Assembly: GCA_000320605.2 (NCBI GenBank)
Contig: KB445792.1
Span: 1,803,581 to 1,867,580 of the forward strand
Direction: 5' to 3'
Origin: Gelatoporia subvermispora B
Taxonomy: Eukaryota; Basidiomycota; Agaricomycetes; Polyporales; Gelatoporiaceae
DNA: 64,000 nt
Below the pieces are notes generated by a model. That model was not told the origin of the DNA, made no database searches, and saw only the letters and a list, made by a program, of their open reading frames with translations. Position 1 is the first letter of the stretch. Every line of letters begins with the position of its first letter. This document shows positions 9,480 through 23,180 of the stretch, piece after piece. Position numbers and translations under genes: made by a program.

Positions 9480-9925
9480 CCGTTTGTGCTGCTCGGCGCC
9501 TTCCGGTCGGAGATCTAAAATCTCCTGCACCGAGCGAGCACAAACGTCTGGTGAGTTTCGTGCAGGCGGGTGTAGCGAAGTCATCATGTGACGTCAACGC
9601 GCCCACGAGGCGTCGTACGCCCTTTGGTTTATTGGCTGGCTCTATGCCCGAGTGTACTCGCTGCTCGGCCTGCTCAGCGCCGTTTTATATGATACACTGT
9701 GTCTCAATCCATCTCATGAAGAAAATACGCAAACGTCGAAGAGGGAGGCTGTTGAGACTTGAAAGCGTACAGAGGGATCCACACCCGCTGGAACGCGTCC
9801 AGCTACGACGCGTTGACGTCACATGACGACTTCGCTACACCCGTCTGCACGAAAGTCACCAGACGTTATAGGAGGATGCGTGCACTGGTTTTTAGATGTC
9901 CGCTCGGCAGCCTCCGTGGCGCAGC
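9480..9925. repeat. Imperfect inverted repeat (palindromic block)
   Basis: Bases about 9480-9605 reappear in reverse complement at about 9808-9925. The best-matched part is 9541-9600 against 9811-9868, including TCACATGATGACTTCG versus TCACATGACGACTTCG. The roughly 200 base loop contains no convincing gene. It lies just left of the nested transposons and could be a small foldback element or a decayed repeat. Confidence 0.75.
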
Positions 9926-9990
9926 CACCCTCCTATACACCTCAGTCCGGACATCAATGCTTACGTAATGGGCCTAGGAGGCCCTTAATG

Positions 9991-10001
9991 CATCTGGAAC
10001 G
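9991..10001 (+). repeat. Left terminal inverted repeat
   Basis: CATCTGGAACG at the left boundary of the transposon. Similarity to the right end stops after 11 bases: the left continues AGCGCAG, the right on its complement GTGCTTT. It is immediately preceded by the TG at 9989-9990. Confidence 0.85.
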
Positions 10002-10479
10002 AGCGCAGAGCCTATATACCCCGAGGTCGCCAGGATAGGGTGGATAGGACGGTCGCCAAGTCCCCGATTATATAGTCCGCAGTTCAGCACACCCGCACCA
10101 CAAAGCTCTATGTAGGGCCAACATCCGCGTTGTCTCACAGTCGCATCGGCGTCTATAGACGACGCAGTCGGATAGCGCCCACGGGCCATAGGGCGCATAG
10201 GACAAGTAGTCGTGCCCCCTGCCTAGCGGGTTTGCGCGTTCGCTCTCGTTTTCCTCTTCAGATATTAATAGTGTACCGGAACTCAATATATTTAGTATCA
10301 TAATGATAGGACTGCTATTCGGCTCGATTCTCTCTACCTAAGTGCCCGCACTGGAACACGCTCGGCCGCGGACTAGTCGCCGTCCTCACATGCAAAGAGT
10401 TCCGCCTCCGGTATACCACCAACCACTTCTTCCGTACTTTCTTCTTGCCCCAATACACCCGCCGCGAAGCTGTCATACT

Positions 10480-10770
10480 CACTGCGTTTCTGCGAATGTA
10501 AAGGGCACGCGATACGATGCCTGAACGGATCGTAGCGGCGCATGTATCTCGTACCTAAGACCCATCGGATCGGATTCCGATACGACGCGAAAGGCGTACA
10601 ATATCGGGTGTTGTATCGGGGGTCCCTGATATGTCTCGTAGCGTACTGTGTATCATATGTGTCGCATGTATCGTGGATTCCCTGACCTCTTGTGTTCCGT
10701 GTCCGATATCCGCGATACCTAGCGTCTGATACCATCTCTACTCCCGCGATACATCACTGATCCTTGCCAA
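10480..10770. repeat. Subterminal cluster of degenerate GATAC/GTATC motifs (left)
   Basis: Many copies of CGATAC, GTATCG, GATAC and TATCG occur in both orientations, roughly every 20-40 bases, about 0.5-0.77 kb from the left end. A comparable cluster lies at 18940-19175 near the other end. Subterminal transposase-binding repeats in both orientations are known for CACTA elements. Here the binding role is inferred. The rest of 9991-11300 shows no gene. Confidence 0.6.
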
Positions 10771-11300
10771 TACGGTGGAAAATGGTTGTTGTAACGTTGC
10801 CTAGATACATAATTAACATCACGTGACTACCTCCCAGCGCTCCTCCCGCCTCATCAGATCCAGATCGTACATAATGGGCACCGCTGCGAAAGCACAAAAC
10901 ATGTTACCGCGCACAACAAATAGTGGTTTTTGGGACATACGAGATAGTTTGAGGTGTGATGAAACCTGCGGAGCAAGACATGAGAGGTAGAACAGAAAGT
11001 AACCCGCATAACACATTCGGAGCTCACCTCACCTCAGAGGTGCTAGTGTGATCGACTCGCGCCATTTCCCCTCGGCGCACATCCTCCCGGAAGATTATCC
11101 TTGAATCTAGAGCAATGAGTCAGGAGTCCTCGTGAGTGAAATATGCGGAAAAAAATTTCGCTGAGGCTCACCTCATCTCCTATATCTTGGGGCGGAAGAA
11201 TCGACTGAGACGACGCTCGACTTGCTTCCGTTGCCTCTTTGCGACGATTCAACGACGCACGACCTGCTTCCGTCATCTTCTTCAGCTCTGCGCCCATACC

Positions 11301-13407
11301 ATGTCTTCGCAACCTGCCACACAGTCGACCTTCGACTCAAGCCAGAACCCTGGGAGCCCGGGCCAGCTATCGCAGATGTCAAACATGTATAACACCAACG
11401 TCAGTACTCGTACATCGTTTCTGATCGCGGGACACTCACTTGGGTCTACAGATCCATGCCATACATGCGGCAGCGCCGATGTCTCAGAGCCAGCCCAGAC
11501 TTCCGGCTCCTCCTGGACTAGGGCCTCCCCAGCCCGCCGCGATGACGCAGTCGCAGTCGCAGATGTATAATGTCAATGTGAGTACTCGCATCATATCTCT
11601 ATGCTTCGTGGAACACTCACGTGCATACTTAGATGCAGCCCACCGGTCCTCCATCTTCTGCGCCGGCGTCAGGCATGCATGGCTCAGGACCTGCCTCGAA
11701 TGTCACCAGTGAAGGCGACTTTGGTATGTTGGGCAACTATGCGCCGGCTGTCCATACTGGTATGCATGGTGAGTCGTCCTCAGTACTGCCAGGACTGTGT
11801 ACTCACTAGTTATGTTACGCTGATAGCCCAACTACCGGGTCAATTCGAGAACATGCAGCACCCTCCCAGCGTGATGTGGAATTCGAACGTACCTGGTGTG
11901 GGCTTTGTGCCTGGTATGCTCACACCCCAGCACGGCCCGCAAGGTATGATGAACATGTATGTTGATATGAATACATTGCGGACCTTCGAGGAACGTATGC
12001 GCAACTTCATGAGCAGCCAAATCATGGAGATGCAGCGCGAGCATCACAACGAGTTGGCCGCAATCAAGAAGCTGCTTGAAGACTCCATGATCGCCAATCA
12101 GCAGGCCCAGATCGTGCCACCTGCGGAGGGTCCTCTCACGAAGAAAGGTCGTAAAGCGCAGAATACCCAGCTCGAGGTGAGTCATCATTCTAATTGGTGA
12201 ACTAAATCTCTGCTCACCTTGGCTCCTTCACAGGCTGCTGTGCATGAGAAATGTCTGTACCTTCTCGGCGACCCTCCCAAGAGGCGCAAGGACGATGCGG
12301 ATCCTGGAGGGAAGCCGTATTACGACTTACCCGAACCTCTTGTCCTGGGCGACACTCCTCGCTTTGCGGATGACCCCGAGCGCACCAAGTTGCATAATCC
12401 CCACTGGCTTTCGCCTGCATCGCACCCTGTCAATGCGGCATACATCGATGCGGCTACGGATCTGTTGTATCAGGAGCGAGGTACGTACTACTCGTACTAC
12501 TCACCAATTATTTCGCTTCCGTGCCCTGATTGCTTCTGCGCAGTCAATGAGACTGACGTCGCCAGCATCAGATTGGCCATGAAGCGGCGACTCAAGCAAG
12601 CTGTGAAGAAGTATTTCGAGAGCTTGCGCAGTCAGTACAAGGCCCGCGTTTCCGAAGAGGCACGCACCAAACGCGAAGGGAAGATGCGAGACGATCGCCA
12701 GAACATGCGAAAGCATCGTGTTAGTACTGCCTCTCTGCGAAGACATAGATATATTCACTTACCATTTGTCTTTACCAGAAATGCGACGCTATGCGCATCT
12801 CCGCCCGCAAACTCAAGAAGATTGTGGGGCGGGAGAATGTTCATGGCCTCAAGGAGCTCCTCCACACCGACTGGATGAGCTCCGAGGATACGGCTGATGA
12901 AGGGGCCAATCTGACTCGCATGGTGAAGCCGCTGAAAGTCCGCCAACTCGGGTGGCGTTCCCCCTCAGTGAGTTACCTAGAATTCTCTGAATAATATCGC
13001 AGACTCACGGTTTACCCCAGTTGAACCGGATTTACGCTCGTCTCCAGTTTTTGATGGCAATAGACCTGTCACTTGCCAGTGAGTCTGAGCCGGAGGACAA
13101 CACTCACATCGGCGTGAGCACGTCCACTGTTTTCACTCATTACCGGCGCCGCTTCCGTGGACCTGCTGACGAGGCCGACGAACGCGAACCGCCCATTGAG
13201 GCTGGCCAGGCTACTATCTGGAGGGAGTGCGTGAGTACTCGTTGGGCTGAACAGACTCCGGGCGGGGAGGAACTGCGTGATGCGCTGAGCACTCACCCGG
13301 AGAACTTCACCATATTTGACTTAGAGATCCCGGATTGTGATCTCAGTCCCCAGGACTTGGCGTGGCTCGCAGATGGCGAGGAGAGCGACGATGACGAGGC
13401 AGAGTAA
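11301..13407 (+). CDS. Transposon accessory gene A, coiled-coil protein of unknown function
   Basis: About eight exons give roughly 570 residues. ATG at 11301 opens MSSQPATQSTFDSSQNPG; TAA is at 13405-13407. The N-terminal third is Gln/Pro/Met/Ser-rich and has two similar exon ends, NMYNTN and QMYNVN, each followed by a similar intron. A predicted coiled coil follows (about 11960-12110: TLRTFEERMRNF to AAIKKLLEDSM), then a basic middle (KKGRKAQ, KRRLKQAVKKYF, ARKLKKIVG) and an acidic end (EESDDDEAE). I recognise no enzyme motif. It converges on the transposase with only about 135 bases between stops. A DNA-binding TnpA-like helper is possible but is inference. Some 3' segments (around 13231-13300) could be either intron or exon. 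Confidence 0.6.
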
Positions 13408-13542
13408 TAAGTAGAGAAATACATACAATATGACGTCGAACAGAGTCATCACAACAATCAATAGTTCCTTGAATTAATTGAATTCGAACTGCTGCATACA
13501 ATATCATACATCGTGAGGCTAGAACCAAAGAGACACCAGTTG

Positions 13543-16500
13543 TCAGTCACCGGGTGAGCAATAAGTATTTTGGCTTACGGGGTCTATCAGAATCGTGGCC
13601 CAGCAGCACGTCTGTCCTGTGTACACTACTGCACGCACCACGCTGCTCATGATGTTCCGAAGATCAATGAGCGACTTGGCGCGATCAGAGCCTGTAAGGG
13701 TGCTGAACGTGTTCGGCTGCCACAGCCGAACATGAAGATCGATACTCGATGGGGCGTCAGCATATAGCTTTCCTATAGCAAGAGTAGACGTACCATTTCG
13801 CCCATGGCGTCTCCTCCTGTCTCACATTGGAGGGACAGAACCATTCAACATATCCGAAAAGATATTGTCCCAGCCGGTTGTCCTGAACGCTGAATATGTG
13901 CGTCAGTTGACCCACCGAGTATCCCTCGTCGCCCGCATTTTGCACTGCGATCAATGAATCTGCAGTCTTGGGGGAGCGAGTGGATGCGTAAAACCGTTTG
14001 CTGTTGACCACAACGTAGTCGTAAAGCACGGCGCGGTTCGGGACACATGTGCTCGTCGAGTCTCTGGCAATTGCGAGCACAGAGTGAAACAGTGCTCCGG
14101 GATGAACCTTATGCAAATGGTGTAGAAATGCAAAATAAACATGCTGTGGCAACGCATCAGCACTACAGCGCGTGCTGAGGTTGAGCGTTGCCATTGCTAG
14201 TGACCATGCATCAGTACGTCCAATCACGGCGAGCCCAGGTGGTGACAAAGTTCACATACCATCTTCCGCATTTTTATCTAACTCCTGTGCTAGTGCCTGA
14301 AGCGTGCCACGATCATCCGCAGATGCCTTGAACATAGCTTCAATGGCACTGCCGATGCCTAAGTTTGCAGGCGTGCTGCGAGCTGCCTCTGCAAGCTGCT
14401 CAAGATGCCGTGAGTTTAGGACTACAGACGATGGATAAGAGTCTCACCAAGCGAGACGTGTTCACCGTCCGGAAGAATTCGCGTAAGAACGAGCACTCGA
14501 GCTCGCCGCCTGCGTGATTGTCGGTACGATACGACTTGAGTACTTTGTTCATCCGTTCAAAAATGAACGTCCAGAACTCGCGAAGCGGTCCATAGTCTCG
14601 AATGCACTCTGCCGTATGAGTTGCATAGTGGTGATTTGGGCATATCACAGGAGCGCCATACAACTGTCCGCTGCGTCAAACAACAGAGCTAATACAACCA
14701 TAGGGAATACGTATATGAATAAGCTCCGCACCATACTCCCGTATGAGCCGATCTGCCTCATCGATGGCAGATTTGCTAAGTTGGTCGCGCAAGATAATCT
14801 GGAGGGCCCTGGACAGCTTAAGGAAGTTGCTAAGGTCGTCGGGATGCATCTTGCAGGTCGTTTCGCCTTGGATGTCTGCCTCGGGACCTGAGAAGGAGTC
14901 TTCGTCGTGTGATACTGCGCCAGCATCGTCTGACTCTAGCTCCATCTCGCGAGCTCGCTCTGTGGGCTTGCGTGTGCGCCCTGAGCGGCGAGGAGCCGTG
15001 GACGTCTAGAAGTCATTTCAGTCAGAAATACATCTACATAACAAGCCGCGACTGACCTGTGCAACGTCCTGAGTGCGCGGACGCTTTCTGCTCTTCTGCG
15101 CGGCAGTTTGCTTCTTCTTCTGCGTCTTTTTTTGGCGGCGCTCGGCAAGGGCTTTCTCAATTTCCCCTCGGCGGTGTTCTAAGAGATGGGCATGGCACTG
15201 GACCATGCCTGCGGAATTCTCTAGGACTCCGTAGTCGTGCCATATCTGTGGCAGTTATGTGTGATACTGTCAGCGCATCTGTGAATGTCATAGCGCGGAT
15301 GTCACTGACAAGTAAAGGTCCGACTATTGTGGCCAATAACAGCCACTGATCTGCCGTGAGAGAACCACCTGCTGGCTCGCCGATGAGGCTGGGCAAACGT
15401 CCTAACCGTGCCAGAAGTTCGAGCTATTCATGATCATGATCAGTCAGAAATGATCTATTTCTGAGAGATCGAGTGGCTCACCTTAGCCAGCATCGCGTGA
15501 AAGGCACGCAGTTCGCGAGTCTTTCGGAGGATCTTCGCTTGAACCCAAATGTGGTAGAAGTGGGTCTTCACTAAGCCTGAATATAACATGAGCAGGGGAC
15601 AAACGCGATGGTTACTGACGTACCTAAGAATAGGTTATGCATGGGATTGACGACCACCATGCGGCACAGATTGAAGTAGGGCAGGCGCGCCAATTCAGAC
15701 CAACGCGTAGCATGATCCTTGGCGAATCGCTCGCGTGCCGCATCAGTCTGCAAGACCTTGTATTTGTTCATATGAGCACGCTGCTCAGTGTCGCTTCGCG
15801 GAGGGAAGGCTGGAAAAACAGTCTCGAGGTGAGCATTAGACAGCATGCGAGCGCGGGACACGTACCATCCTTCAAAAACGCATCCAACGTCGCCTTGAGA
15901 TGCTGTGTGATCCAATCGCGCGTGCAGAAGCATGTATGTGAGTGTGACCCGAACCCAGCGAGTTTGTGAGCCGCTGGCTTGTCGCATATGAGTCCAACAA
16001 GGATAACGCGCACGAGGCGCCCTTGCGGGAATTGAGGTGTTGCAACAGTGAAACCGTCCTTCCAGAGGCGTAGTAGCTCGTTGATAAGGACATGGAGGAA
16101 GAACTGGACTTGATCTGGGCCGGCCTCTTTAGGTCCTGGCATGATCCCCATGAGCAGAAGGTTTGACGTGCGATATCTGACAAATGTCAGCCATGGGAAA
16201 GCGCGCGCTGCATGTTGCAGACGTACCGGAGCGCCGATGGGAGGTTGATGACATTGAAGGACATGGGGCAAGAAGTGTGTGATGGGGCGATCTGGCTGTG
16301 CAAGTACGAAAACCTAGAGGCGCAGATATCAGTGGGGCTGTGGGAGAATTTTCCGAAACGCTGCTGATTCTCACCAGTCTACTCCTAGACTCACACCAAT
16401 GCGCAATTCAGACGAAGTTGAATTGGCGTCGAAAAAGGTCTTGTCGTCAGGACCCTTCAGCTCGCGGAGGATCTGTCCATCAAACATGTCTTGAAGGACA

Positions 16501-17612
16501 TCGGTTTGACGGGACTTCTTGCGCCACTGTTCGCAAAGGCCTTCCATCCCGGGCACGCAAAGCATGTCGGTCAGCTGACTCTGGAGGGATCGAAACGGGA
16601 AGCGTAGCAAAGGCTTGCGCACACGGCGCATGGTACGACCCTGACGCTGTTCCCTGGGAGTAGTAGTCGTCACGAAGAGGGGTGCATCGCAGTGAGTGCA
16701 AAGGGCGGCGTCTGAGATGGTCCCTGGGAAGACACGCGAACACGATGGGCAAACCGGGAGCGTCTGAAATGTCGGCTCAGCATGAAGTGCCGCAATAACC
16801 CCAGGGAGTGATGTTGCCATGGAAGGGACTACGGAGATACCCAGTAAGGTCAGGATCATCGAAAGTACCGTCAGAAGGGCATTACACGCGCGAAAGGGCA
16901 GATGCCACTGCGAGTGTAACCAGAATACCAGGACATAGATCAAGAAGATTGCTGGATTCGGGTGAACGTCGCTGACAGAAGCTAGACTCGGCAGCTGTGG
17001 GCCGGGCTCCAGATAGAAAGGGTCGAGTTCAGGGACTTGGGGGGTGGGAGAAAGTTGAACGGGAGTGTCGATAGCGTCGCCAGTGGAAGCGCACGGAGTG
17101 CCATCTGCAGGGATGCTGGAAGGTGCATCGTGTGAAGAGTCTTCCGAGAGAATCGCGTGTGGCTCCTCCTCCCAGTCGGAGTCCTCCCCGATGAGATCTG
17201 CGGAGCATATTTGTTCTGCGTGTTCTTGGAATTGTTGTCCACTGTCCTCGGCCGCAGCTACGTGGATCTGTATAGCATCTTGCGCTGTTGTGATGATATC
17301 CTGGAGTATGTGCGACTCAGACGATGCCGCAGTGCCTGTCTGATCATCGTGACCGTGGTTAGGCACAGGGGGGTCAAGAAGCGCGTCGTCAGTAGAAATG
17401 CGTAAGAGGGCATCCGAGGGCGGGAGGGAATCCGGGGGATATACTTCAGCTACTAGTGGTGTGCTGGAAGTAGGTGTGGGATGATAGGTGCTGGCAATAC
17501 GTCTGGCGGTCTGGAGATGTCGCTCTCGAGTAGAGCGAGGTTGATATGCACCTTGACATGTCTTACAGTGGCAGCGGACCGGCTTGCGAACGGGCTTGGG
17601 TGGCTGATGCAT
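13543..17612 (-). CDS. Tnp2-family transposase (Transposase_21-like), possibly inactive
   Basis: A multi-exon gene on the minus strand. The start is the ATG at 17612 (MHQPPKPVRKPVRCHCKTCQ); the in-frame codons further upstream are not ATG. It opens with a Cys/His zinc-finger-like segment (CHCKTC, then RHL), an acidic variable region, hydrophobic helices near 16860-16950 and a CPSC-CTHC pair. The transposase core follows: LRIGVSLGVDWFS, LRYRTSNLLLMGIMPGPKEA, FPQGRLVRVILVGLICD, RWSELARLPYFN, MVVVNPMHNLFLG, SLTADQWLLLATIVGP, and a C-terminal part with SVGQLTHIFSV. These match the order in fungal Tnp2 proteins as I know them. The usual DPMHNL motif reads NPMHNL here (codon AAT). The last exon, ending at the TGA at 13545-13543, is my best splice guess. 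Confidence 0.8.
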
Positions 17613-17930
17613 GAAGAACGAGTCAGTCAAACCATCGCAAAGCTCTGAAGAACCAGTTCACCATAGTCTGTCGCTGGAACAAGCAGAATTGGGTGGTGAG
17701 TGCTCATCGATGAGCGGAGGAAAACTGCCCAGGGCCGTGGACAGCACAACAATTGTAGTAGACATTCGATACAAAGTCTCAGCAATTGAGTCACGCGTTT
17801 GGGCGCGTGCGCACGTAATCAAATTCACTTCTGCGAATTTGACTGTCTCAGAACCTATGTTTGAACGAGCGAGAAAACATTGGTTTCGATGTATTTGGGA
17901 ACAGTACAGAGCTGCTAGTAATGTACTATA

Positions 17931-18840
17931 CTAGAAATAATCTGGGAGGTCGTGTTCCTCGACCTCCTCAACCTCCTCATCCTCTTGCTCTGGGATATCT
18001 TCCCCTGCATTGGGCGCAGCAGCAGGAGGAAGCTTGGGAGATGGGATGGAATCCGGCCAAGCGGCCACAGACTTGACCTGGAGATCACGGATGAAGTCTT
18101 GTGTATCACAAATACGAAGGGCCTAGTACAACGGGCCAAATATGAGTGCATGCACGAGTGAACAGAATGATGCAACTTACGGCGTTATGGTTCGCTTGGT
18201 TGTGACATAGGTCAGACAACCATTTCAACATCCATTCGTAGGACGTTGCCATCTCGAGGGGGGCACCCCACGTCCACTCTCGGGTGGTCCAGAGAGGGCC
18301 GTGGGCGCCGGGATGCTTGTCGTATATTGCCAGTACGATGTCGGGTCTGTAAACGATGAGGGAGGTCCAGTGCGTAGGGTCGTGAGCCGCGACCATCAAG
18401 TGCAGCATGTACGTTCCCTTGCGCAGGATGCCGTCTACGACACCGCCCTACGCAGCGTCAGATATGATATAACAAGAGAATGACTAGTGACATACCTTTC
18501 CCTTGTCGACCCAAACGATAGCATACACGCTGTTGGCTTCGATGCCCCGAAGAGCGCGTATGCCAACATCATCAATCTTGAACTGCGTGGATTCGAGACG
18601 TGCGAGGAGCTCGTCCATCTTCCAGCGGCCGTCGGGGGTGAAGTCGGAGATAGGTGCAGGCACAAGGGCATGAGACACAAATCGGCGTGGACGTCTCGGG
18701 GTGAGATCCTCGGGGCTTAGAGATCGCTGACGCTTGGTGATTGGACGCTTTGAAAGACGTTTCGTGGTAGGCTTCGGCTGATTGTGGTCCGTGGCAGTAG
18801 GCTGGGAGGGCTGAGTGCTAGTACTAGAGTCCATGGGCAT
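17931..18840 (-). CDS. Transposon accessory gene C, hypothetical protein with acidic tail
   Basis: Three exons, about 270 residues. The start is MPMDSSTSTQ at 18840 (a second ATG is two codons in). The N-terminus is basic and Pro/Thr-rich (KRLSKRPITKRQRS). A compact middle follows, including WKMDELLARLES, YAIVWVDKGK, GTYMLHLMVAAHDPTHWTSL and ATSYEWMLKWLSDLCHNQ. The C-terminus is very acidic (EQEDEEVEEVEEHDLPDYF), ending with TAG at 17933-17931. Intron donors GTATGTCACTAG and GTAAGTTGC keep the frame. It lies upstream of the transposase on the same strand. I do not recognise the family. Confidence 0.6.
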
Positions 18841-18939
18841 GATGGAGGATGGAAGAGGGATGCGACAGCCAAGAGTGAGAAACTGAGACCCAGAAATAGA
18901 GTTTTGAAATCGATGGCTGATACAAGAAGTAGGAGAGGT

Positions 18940-19175
18940 GTAAAAGCGAGAATACCTGGCGTAGAGAATATCGAAAGGAGTGGCCTATACCGAGAGTATC
19001 AGCAAGCGTTCTACATGCCCGATACGGCAAGTATCGAATGTGTCGCGCGACCGATACCAAACGTGGCGGCGGGTCCCACGCTACTTATGCCAGCAAACAT
19101 ATCGAACGTTTCGGGCACTATTCTATTCGTGCTACGGCAGTCACTACATGCTCGGCGGTACGTAGCAAAATTGTA
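18940..19175. repeat. Subterminal cluster of degenerate GATAC/GTATC motifs (right)
   Basis: This holds ATACC, ATATCG, GTATC, CGATACGG, GTATCGAA, CGATACC and CATATCG, in both orientations, about 0.7-1.0 kb from the right end. It mirrors the cluster at 10480-10770 and also serves as the upstream region of accessory gene C. Confidence 0.5.
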
Positions 19176-19533
19176 TCATAGGCCCATTACATTCTCAAAA
19201 ACGCAGTGACTCTCATCAGCCATCGGAAAGTCATCCCAGTAGTGTTTCGTACACACCGACAGTTTGCCTGAGATGGAGATTAATGGGTCAGTGCTGGGCA
19301 GTGCCGGATCAGGGAAGATAGCATACCTCAGCCATGGAGACATACATAGACGTGATGAGCGCGTCAGCCTCAATGTCCTCGAAAGGACGCAAGCCTTCCA
19401 ACCAGAAAGATTCCGTGGAGTCCAGAAAAGAGCTGATGAGTCGATCAATGGGCCAGAGGCGGGATGAGATAAGTCGGCTAGGACTTGAGGTGACAGGAGC
19501 AAGCCAAGTGGTGGATGTCAGATGTTTAGGCAT
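19176..19533 (-). CDS. Transposon accessory gene D, small hypothetical protein
   Basis: Two exons. The ATG is at 19533 (MPKHLTSTTWLAPVTSS). The first exon runs to SMYVSMAE, then a short intron (donor GGTATGCTATC, acceptor CATCTCAG), then GKLSVCTKHYWDDFPMADE to the stop at 19178-19176. The product is about 100 residues, with no motif I recognise. The in-frame region upstream of the ATG has only a TTG. It is the rightmost gene of the transposon; 19534-19905 beyond it is non-coding. Small size and lack of homology recall keep confidence modest. Confidence 0.4.
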
Positions 19534-19894
19534 GAGGAATCGGAGTCTTTGAAAGAAGATGCGAGCGAGGCGAGCGAGCAAGTGGGAGAAAGCGAGACTG
19601 CACAGTGTGCCAGTTGGCAGTGAGCGGACTTAAAAGACGAGAGGTGAAACATTTTGTTGATTCAAGAGACACGGTCACGAGCGAGCGTGGTGCCTATGGG
19701 TGGCGAGCATAGAGCTATGTCGAACGACAGCGCGTGCATAGATGTCGCATGTACGGTAGGAGTATATCGAACGCGGCCGTTAGAGAAGAGCTCTGTAGGT
19801 AGGGACGCCTACAGAGTCCTACGGAGCGCCTATATCGCAGCGCCTGCCGATCGTAGCCTATGTAGAAGCACCTGCCCTACGGGGGCAAAAGCAC

Positions 19895-19905
19895 CGTTCC
19901 AGATG
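19895..19905 (-). repeat. Right terminal inverted repeat
   Basis: CGTTCCAGATG, the exact reverse complement of the first 11 bases of the transposon, followed by TG at 19906-19907, where the interrupted repeat resumes. Confidence 0.85.
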
Positions 19906-20105
19906 TGTGGTCGGGTGCCAGGGGCCTTCGAGGCTCCATCCCGGGGAGGCCTCCTCGACGCTCAATATAGAGTAGTCGTCGAGAGCATCACGGCGTCATC
20001 GTGAATGGTAAAAAAAGTGCGCGGATGGTGCAATCAAGTGTCGTGTTGGACCTGGGTATTCGCAGATCACGTTTTCGTGTGACGGGTCTGCAGATATCAT
20101 ATTGC

Positions 20106-21190
20106 AGAAGACACATGAGAGTCGAGAATGACCAAGACTATTGATGATAGCGAAGGCGGGCATATAGAGATTGGGATATTGTTCATACGATTCCATGTGC
20201 AGGCTGCAGATAGGTAGCCATCATCCACAACCTGCTCCAGGACATCTTGCTTCCATCTCCATGTCCTCCGAGATGTCTCTAACTGCTATACGATGTCAGC
20301 ATATGGACTGAACGTATGCAATTACATTATAAGTCTGATTTGAACATGCAACCAATTTGATCTATTCAGCTGACCATGGAACATACTCAGATCATTTGCG
20401 GCTCCGACAATGTTCATACGGTCAGTGATATGCCTCCTGACCAATCACAAGCCGTATAATGGGACACCTGTCAGTAGTGTCATGCAGCAGTACTCCGCTG
20501 CACTCTTGTACTGGTGTGAACCTCCATATTTTCACAGGATTACATCACAACAGCATGGAATGTGTATATATTGTGCCTATGTAAGTGATTTTATAACGCT
20601 CAAGATCAATTGAGGTACGGTCGGACCGTCGAGTACTTAACCTCAATGATTGGGCACTCAGTGATACCAGAAGCATGATCAAGTGCTGCCCTTCGACTAC
20701 ACCACGAGCACAGTTAACAGCAACCTAGCCTAGTCTCATACGACCTCAACAACTCAATAAATGAGTCATTCAATCCTTTCTAACCCGCCTCGAGTCCGTC
20801 GCAAGTTGGCTGAGTATGACATCATTGACAGGGCGTCCCGTTATATGGCTTGTGATTGGACAGGACGCATCTCGCTACTCATATGGATAGTATCAGAGTC
20901 GCAAATGGTCTAGATATGTTCCAGTATCATCTGTGTAGCTCCAGTTATGCACATTTCTATCATGAGACTCACAGTTTCATCACCCAGGTTCAATTAATAT
21001 ATTGACACCGTATGCTCATATTGGAGACATCTCGGAGAACGTAGAGATGGCAGCGATATGTTTCGGAACAACTCGTGGATGGAATCTTCCATTTGATAAC
21101 ATACTATATGTGATGGTATGTAAAATAACTGATCTTATTGTGCCCGCGCCCGCTGCTATTCAGCCATTCTCGTGGGTCTTCCGAGTCTGT
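20106..21190. other. Non-coding interior of the hosting inverted-repeat element
   Basis: AT-richer sequence between the two inverted arms. Only short open frames under 115 codons occur, and none reads as a recognisable protein. I see no RNA gene. Confidence 0.5.
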
Positions 21191-21884
21191 GGTATGATCA
21201 TATGAAATCTGCAAACCCTGAAAAGTGTGATTTACGAAGACCCAGGTACAACACGACGCTTAATTGCACCATCCGCGCATTTTTTTTACCATTGACGATG
21301 ACGCCGCGATGCTCTCGACGACTACTCTATATTGAGCGTCGAGGAGGCCTCCCCGGGATGGAGCCTCGAAGGCCCCTGGCGCCCAACCACATTAAGGGCC
21401 TCCTAGGCCCATTACGTAAGCTTATGATGTCCGGACTGAGATGCTCCCACCGTGGGCATAGATCGATGCCCACAGTGCGAAAATGCTCAAGAAATGATAA
21501 GAAATGATCAAATTTCTTTTACCTGTTTCAGGTAGCTTAAGGTAAACACTAAGTAATCCGCATTCTTTGTGTTCCAGCAGTGTCTTCAAGGTGGTGCGAG
21601 GCGGGACATGCAATATAAAGTGCACTTCAAAGTGTAGATATCCTGCTTACATGCTTGTTATCAAGGGCATGCTGCAGACATACGAACTACATTAGCATGT
21701 CCTGCCTCGCGCTAGCCTGAAGGCATCACTAGGGACATAAAAGAGGACAATTGCTCTACTTTAACCTGATATTTTCCAAAATTGGCAAAGAACATTGAAT
21801 CATTTCTCGCTATTTCTTCAGCATTACTACATCTCAGACATGGATCTATGTCCATGGTGTCCTATAACGTCTGGCTTGCGAGAC

Positions 21885-22640
21885 TACCTTGCTTGCAAGG
21901 TCTCTCCATGCCACAATTGTGCCCATTTCTTTCCTTTTTTCCCACACTCATGTGCTCACCGCTCTTTTGACAGGTGCGTGTTCGATTCGCCCGCGTCGCA
22001 ATTATTATTATATATTATGCTTTCGGTGCCTGTCCTTATAGTGCCTAACCTCAGTCACCTCGGAGTAGCTCTCGATCGCACATTTCTCGTCTCTCGTCTC
22101 TATGTTATGCAGTCCTAGCTAACCAATCACCAGTCCTCTTCTCCTTTTTATTGCCTCTCTCCTCCATTTTAAACATTTTTGCATTGCCCGTTCATTTGGT
22201 ATCCCTTGTTCTTGCAATCATCGCACTCTATGCACTTACTTTGCTCGACCTTCCACTTGTCTGGATGTATCCCAGTCACATATTATTTTGGTCTTCAGTA
22301 ATTCTAGCCGGTCATCTTTCACCTTCAAATCTGGGTCATGCATCTGCAGGAATAGCTTCGTGTCAAACTGACGGAGCATTTAAATTGTCCCTCGCCCCGA
22401 GCAAGAGTGCATGTCCCTGGTAATGTCTGTGTGAGTGATTTTTCATATATATATGATTGATGTTTACGCGCTGACATTAAAGCACTCAGACATGTGCCGT
22501 GTGAAGCAAACTGATAAGTTACAGCTCTCATAACTTTAGCTTGCTGGTGATCGTATGCGTAGTCACCTTGCTTGCAAGGTTTCTCCTTGCCATAATTGTG
22601 ACCACTTTTCGTTCAACATATTCCCACGGTCCCTCGCGCG
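21885..22640. repeat. Diverged direct repeat pair around ACCTTGCTTGCAAGG
   Basis: The segment near 21885-21950 (CTTGCTTGCAAGGTCTCTCC then CACAATTGTG) recurs near 22565-22625 (CTTGCTTGCAAGGTTTCTCC then CATAATTGTG). The spacing is about 680 bases, and the intervening DNA has no convincing gene. This looks like decayed transposon debris or part of one element with internal repeats. Confidence 0.55.
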
Positions 22641-22844
22641 TGAACCTCCTTCCTTATCCGGTGCGCGTCTCAATGCGCGTCTTGACCTCGCACGTGCTCT
22701 CACATTCATGTATGAGGCTCGACGACCTCACAGGTACCATCCATGATGTAGTCCTGTAACTGAGAATTTCGCATGTATCCGCTGAAAGTTGTGATCACAA
22801 TAATGCACATGCAATCGGAGAAGTTCCAAGTTGCCGATAAAGGC

Positions 22845-23035
22845 AAGCAAGGTTGTTGCCGACATGGGCGGCGCTTCTCTAGTATGTAGTTGGGGTGGCA
22901 AAACAACATGTAGCATGCACAATAGTTAACAAATGTCCAGTCGATCCGAGGTGAGAAATGTACCTTGCATTTTGATGTTGTAAGTCGAGCAAGCAAGGTT
23001 ATTGCTGCGTCGCGCGGCACTTCTCTAGTATCTTG
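22845..23035. repeat. Second diverged direct repeat pair (AAGCAAGGTT...CTTCTCTAGTAT)
   Basis: 22850-22882 and 22991-23031 both read AAGCAAGGTT followed by GCGGC and CTTCTCTAGTAT, with small differences. The core CAAGCAAGG also resembles the half-palindrome CTTGCTTGCAAGG of the pair to the left. The second copy ends about 150 bases before the RTP1 start. Confidence 0.5.
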
Positions 23036-23180
23036 TTTTATGCAGAAATCGCGATCACGCGTCAATTTGGTCAATTACATGCGCAGGCGCCTAGAGTGGG
23101 AGATCACTCTCAACTCTTGAGCCTCCTCCGTGGTAGGCAATCTTTACTAGGTTACTCGCCGCTTGCTTGGGCTCGTTCAC

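Follow-up and report, generated by a model that had tools for sequence, protein, structure and literature searches.

Three transposons inserted one into another

The window, which is the whole stretch of 64,000 nucleotides analysed here (C2:1803581-1867580), almost certainly contains three nested DNA transposons of known types: a KDZ-type element, a Plavaka-type (PlavakaB-like) derivative within it, and a CACTA/EnSpm element within that derivative. The boundaries of the three elements, the target duplications of the two inner ones, empty sites for each of these two insertions and the order of insertion are all observed in the DNA of a single genome (37.7 Mb in 52 contigs), the whole of which was searched. 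The KDZ, Plavaka and Tnp2 transposons present point to a mushroom-forming fungus. An initial annotation had described nested transposons with a readable empty site, which proved right, but it had taken 9991-19905 for a single element; this stretch is a composite that includes a separate CACTA element. The layers are laid out as follows, no strand being assigned unless given:

9938..21443: outer element, KDZ-type and non-autonomous, 1,589 bp when the 9,917-bp insertion is left out, ends CACCTCAGTCCGG / CCGGACTGAGATG
21190..21443, minus strand: uninterrupted second arm of the outer element, the empty site for the TG insertion, from comparison of the arms
9989..9990: TG duplication of the middle element, left copy
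19906..19907: TG duplication of the middle element, right copy
9991..10479: middle element, left part, 81% identical to one end of C13:925883-938924 from the first base
19212..19905: middle element, right part, aligning to both ends of the C13 copy
10477..10479: ACT duplication of the innermost element, left copy
19209..19211: ACT duplication of the innermost element, right copy
10480..19208: innermost CACTA/EnSpm element, 8,729 bp, ends CACTGCGTTT...AAACGCAGTG

Each layer is of an already known kind, and there is nothing unusual about the Tnp2 element. All three layers agree with the descriptions in PMC12730594, with two exceptions: a single letter in the ends of the middle element, and the flanks of the outer copy itself. 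The duplication lengths of both inner layers match those of their superfamilies, while for the outer layer only the relatives show the match.

How could such a nest have been assembled? A 1.6-kb non-autonomous KDZ-type element came first, presumably moved by the KDZ transposase of larger copies. A 1.18-kb Plavaka-type internal-deletion derivative then entered the left arm of this element with a 2-bp TG duplication; as its shared ends suggest, it was presumably moved by Plavaka transposase supplied in trans. Finally, an 8.7-kb CACTA/EnSpm element with its own Tnp2 gene, probably autonomous at the time of moving, entered the derivative with a 3-bp ACT duplication. The locus is a clean teaching case, in which three superfamilies in one genome display three duplication lengths (8 bp, as judged by relatives, 2 bp and 3 bp), with empty sites available in the same genome for two of the three layers.

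Ends and transposase of the 9991-19905 stretch

The ends reported at 9991 (CATCTGGAACG) and 19905 (CGTTCCAGATG) are real, and TG stands on both sides of them. The second arm of the outer element is uninterrupted, as had been claimed: it reads TTAATGTGG, with a single TG at the point where the split arm reads TTAATG, the element and TGTGG. To one side of the insertion point the two arms agree at 92% across 170 bp, and to the other at 100% across 32 bp. This second arm has 19 matches in the genome, 3 in the window and 16 outside it, including six other two-ended copies of the outer element. The insertion point is uninterrupted in 15 of the 16 outside matches, which together with the second arm provide empty sites for the TG insertion; the sixteenth is uninformative, as it is missing the outer end.

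The initial annotation had proposed searching the genome with the 11-bp ends plus about 200 bp of subterminal sequence. By itself the 11-bp end was uninformative and was rejected as a genome-wide marker, because it had 33 matches against 29 for a reversed control pattern. With the subterminal sequence included, the search yielded just two further loci, both flanked by TG: a two-ended copy (C13:925883-938924) and a single end (C28:85612). The C13 copy, 13,042 bp long, contains the Plavaka domain PF18759 (E 9.5e-124, with two stop codons in the matched stretch), whereas the window copy contains Tnp2 (PF02992), and it was this mismatch that led to the third element. At the DNA level, what 9991-19905 and the C13 copy share is limited to stretches of about 0.5 kb and 0.6 kb, one at each end, with no common core.

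The Tnp2 gene lies in an ordinary CACTA element

The edges of the core recur in the genome on their own. When 10250-10650 was used as the query, similarity began between 10473 and 10479 at four other places, and a search with 10300-19400 revealed five dispersed shorter copies that share both core edges:

C13:920462-922062, duplication ATT
C11:730052-731553, duplication ACT
C35:133839-135106, duplication AGT
C7:1412013-1413284, duplication ACT
C10:946829-948102, duplication AAT

These relatives have CACTG..CAGTG-like ends, and inspection by eye of the adjacent bases on either side found no carrier sequence. The copies were located without any duplication criterion, and in all six, including the window copy with its ACT, the duplication is 3 bp and 3 bp only. 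In addition, the C13 Plavaka copy is continuous at the ACT site, reading CTGTCATACTCGCATCAGCC where the window reads CTGTCATACT, the element and ACTCTCATCAGCC, within a 545-bp match at 81%. The independent copies of the core and this read-through place the Tnp2 gene in an ordinary CACTA element. All six duplications are of the form ANT (ACT, ATT, ACT, AGT, ACT, AAT), which suggests a target preference.

The frames of interest in this element are:

15768..16313, minus strand: transposase exon, PF02992 Transposase_21 (tnp2), E 7.3e-8
16371..17657, minus strand: 428-aa open frame, probably an exon of the tnp2 gene lying upstream; its tail matches C7 sequence that immediately precedes the tnp2 stretch there
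18109..18447, minus strand: accessory open frame, 29-33% identical to a Plavaka accessory gene, E 1.3e-6 to 4.8e-9

The PF02992 match scores 32.3 bits against a cut-off of 28.6 and extends over just 91 of the profile's 213 positions. The 428-aa frame is 41-46% identical to six unnamed database proteins, in a search in which scoring was limited to the 7,991 candidates with the most words in common with it. Ten frames of the window element were scanned against Pfam, a set that left out frames 11136-11570 and 19176-19517, and the nine others matched no family with E of 0.1 or below.

CACTA termini have the form CACT(A/G). For EnSpm, a 3-bp duplication and CAC..GTG ends are described in the main text of PMC12730594. 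The innermost element resembles CACTA/EnSpm elements with Tnp2 in its CACTG.. ends, its 3-bp duplication and its PF02992 domain, and is structurally unremarkable; it differs in having an accessory frame with relatives in Plavaka elements. The stretch 9991-19905 taken as a whole does not fit them, since its CATCTGG ends and 2-bp TG both come from another element. The initial annotation saw something unusual for a Tnp2-type element in the combination of a 2-bp duplication and non-CACTA ends; this reading is refuted, as the Tnp2 domain lies in the innermost element, which has CACTA ends and duplicates 3 bp.

A single 9,915-bp transposon of the Tnp2 type, with a 2-bp duplication and with unusual ends that are not CACTA, would account for the ends, the TG duplication and the Tnp2 domain between them. 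We consider this very improbable, because the edges of 10480-19208 recur carrier-free at five places with CACTG-like ends and 3-bp duplications of their own, because the C13 relative, whose outer ends are the same, contains Plavaka and shares no core, and because both independent core copies and an empty site inside the carrier are observed. The correction in favour of a separate CACTA element is secure. It carries a lesson: a transposase found between two ends is not necessarily the one that recognises those ends, and such a misassignment is easily made.

The carrier is a Plavaka-type derivative

Without the CACTA insertion the middle element is 1,183 bp long, with ends CATCTGG/CCAGATG that match each other in 11 of 11 bases. 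Its first 545 bp correspond to one end of the C13 copy (81%) and its last 618 bp to the other end, with 20 bp unmatched between them: the match to the first end runs across the CACTA insertion to 19267, and that to the other end begins at 19288. Judging from this alignment, the middle element is an internal-deletion derivative of the Plavaka-type C13 element and has lost the transposase. It retains one recognisable relic:

19309..19629, minus strand: relic of the Plavaka accessory gene in the middle element

The intact carrier ends, with all 11 bases matched, and the absence of any physical bar leave room for the idea that the Plavaka carrier and the CACTA element now move as one composite through the carrier ends. 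This is extremely improbable, since the only full-length match listed for the query 10300-19400 is the window copy itself (repeat counts being lower bounds).

The C13 copy itself contains a later LTR retrotransposon at 927574-933802 (6,229 bp, with 312-bp repeats 97% alike and GCGCA flanks), which is of the Ty3 type by reading of its frames. The lone right end at C28:84843-85612 is 96-98% identical to the middle element and contains about 125 additional bases. Its resemblance to the window copy ends a few bases or less from the junction of that copy's internal deletion, and the stretch examined revealed no left end.

Ends and target sites of Plavaka-type copies

Four other two-ended Plavaka-type copies, from the minority of Plavaka loci inspected for ends, were delimited by aligning copies with one another or by end homology: C13:815101-822238, C17:542678-548762, C7:349078-356025 and C3:1404809-1416559. 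A profile search reported PF18759 in the first three and not in the C3 copy. The right end of the C7 copy was selected by a scan requiring a 2-bp match, and the 99% identical C3 end starts at the same base. Two further candidates, a second right end from the scan at C17 546188 (also TG) and C26 267916-269922, were set aside, as no edge of an alignment backed either of them.

The rule of a 2-bp duplication, proposed from the window alone, holds in six of six two-ended copies including those of the window and C13 (TG, TG, TA, TG, CG and CA), and no other length matches. Five one-sided ends are flanked by TG (C28), TA (C11), TA (C7:1989778), AA (C22) and GG (C17:81516). A second, independent empty site for this rule is available: the joined flanks of the C13 copy (925883-938924) match C8:1132331-1132623 with 88% identity over 293 bases and no net length difference, and at the join the C8 locus carries one dinucleotide only, CG in place of TG.

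According to the main text of PMC12730594, PlavakaB elements have CATCA..TGATG ends and duplications of 2 or 3 bp. The window and C13 copies end in CATCT..AGATG, one letter off, while CATCA is found in seven of the eight ends of the C7, C13:815101, C17 and C3 relatives, the eighth (C17 right) being CATCT. Likeness to PlavakaB lies in the 2-bp duplication, in ends of the form CATC(A/T)GG and in PF18759, present in the C13 relative and the C7, C13:815101 and C17 copies; the window copy differs in having CATCT rather than CATCA and in being a 1.18-kb deletion derivative with its transposase lost. The PlavakaB family, for which 2 bp has already been described in print, is the most likely home of the 2-bp TG duplication, and the present copies support, copy by copy, both the termini and the 2-bp duplication recently described for PlavakaB.

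The insertion sites are pyrimidine-purine dinucleotides in six of six two-ended copies and at three of the five one-sided ends, which suggests that the Plavaka transposase may choose flexible pyrimidine-purine steps. Such a preference was not found in the literature listings on Plavaka or in the passages of PMC12730594 consulted, and it may have been published earlier.

Several observations concern the Plavaka coding region. PF18759 is split in 15 Plavaka copies, with its last part (from profile position 275-288 to 325) lying about 1.1-5.1 kb downstream and the split falling at a similar position in the domain; C19:607647-609676, C27:274766-277686 and C51:1889-5562 are examples, and in several other copies the domain is contiguous. 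The gap in the C19 copy holds a dsRNA-binding exon (PF00035, E 4.9e-6), to which the C27 copy has no match. This exon was rejected as conserved Plavaka cargo, only one of the five PF00035 matches in the genome (that of C19) lying near Plavaka. A frame of the C17 Plavaka copy, 543904-544380 on the minus strand, has a sub-threshold match to DUF6532 (PF20149, E 3.5e-4, 20.9 bits against 24).

An accessory gene in two superfamilies

The accessory frame of the CACTA element is related to a gene that lies near one end of Plavaka elements, at C17:547937-548173 and C13:821350-821586 (both minus-strand frames). The neighbouring frame 18487-18984 has a weak match (E 0.003). When 18106-18447, 18484-18984, 19309-19629 and the C17 relative were compared with Pfam, no family was found at E up to 1. 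The presence of a homologous gene in both suggests that the CACTA and Plavaka superfamilies may have a helper function in common, or that the gene may have passed between them. That this is so, and that the Plavaka transposase also picks pyrimidine-purine steps, is a joint proposal which we put forward tentatively, at somewhat less than even chances. The word 'accessory' is absent from the main text of PMC12730594, the one paper to which this literature comparison extends.

The outer element belongs to the KDZ group

The outer element does exist as initially described, but its limits, given as 9941-21440, lie three bases further out on each side, at 9938 and 21443; they were moved because the relatives end in CAC/GTG. 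Its true ends are CACCTCAGTCCGG.. and ..CCGGACTGAGGTG, the window copy ending in ATG and the relatives in GTG. An 8-bp duplication is found in six of seven two-ended copies (GCAGAGAG, AGCAGGTT, TCTAGCGC, GTTTTGGT, GCCAGTCC and GGGAATTT), the exception being the window copy, in which no duplication of its own is recognisable: its flanks CTCCTATA / CTCCCACC agree in five of eight letters, with no exact match at any length.

These unmatched flanks are what might be expected had the arrangement arisen by recombination between dispersed repeats rather than by insertion. Such an origin is extremely improbable, since both inner layers have exact duplications, of 2 bp and 3 bp, with precise empty sites, and successive insertion is the reading retained here.

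The KDZ transposase domain PF18758 was found inside at least three of five large copies (C18, C7 and C4:962952); in the other two the profile search, whose matches are a lower bound, did not report it. Because three of the five large relatives have this transposase, the window copy, at 1,589 bp without its insertion, is classed as a non-autonomous KDZ-type element. A 98%-identical relative on C13 has no left end. In PMC12730594, duplications of 8 bp are described for Zisupton and one family of the Dileera lineage, and of 7 bp for two Kyakuja families. Likeness to KDZ (Kyakuja-Dileera-Zisupton) elements consists in the 8-bp duplication of six relatives, PF18758 in three large copies and the CAC..GTG termini of the relatives; the window copy differs in being non-autonomous and in its unrecognisable duplication, and the assignment is made at the level of KDZ as a whole.

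The left end of the outer element adjoins a pair of 115-nt inverted repeats (78%) at 9487-9923 of the window, possibly a further small element, and related sequence also flanks the C13 Plavaka copy (925883-938924). At 21886-23037 of the window there are repeats of 43-49 nt with the palindrome ACCTTGCTTGCAAGGT or the related GCAAGCAAGGTT.
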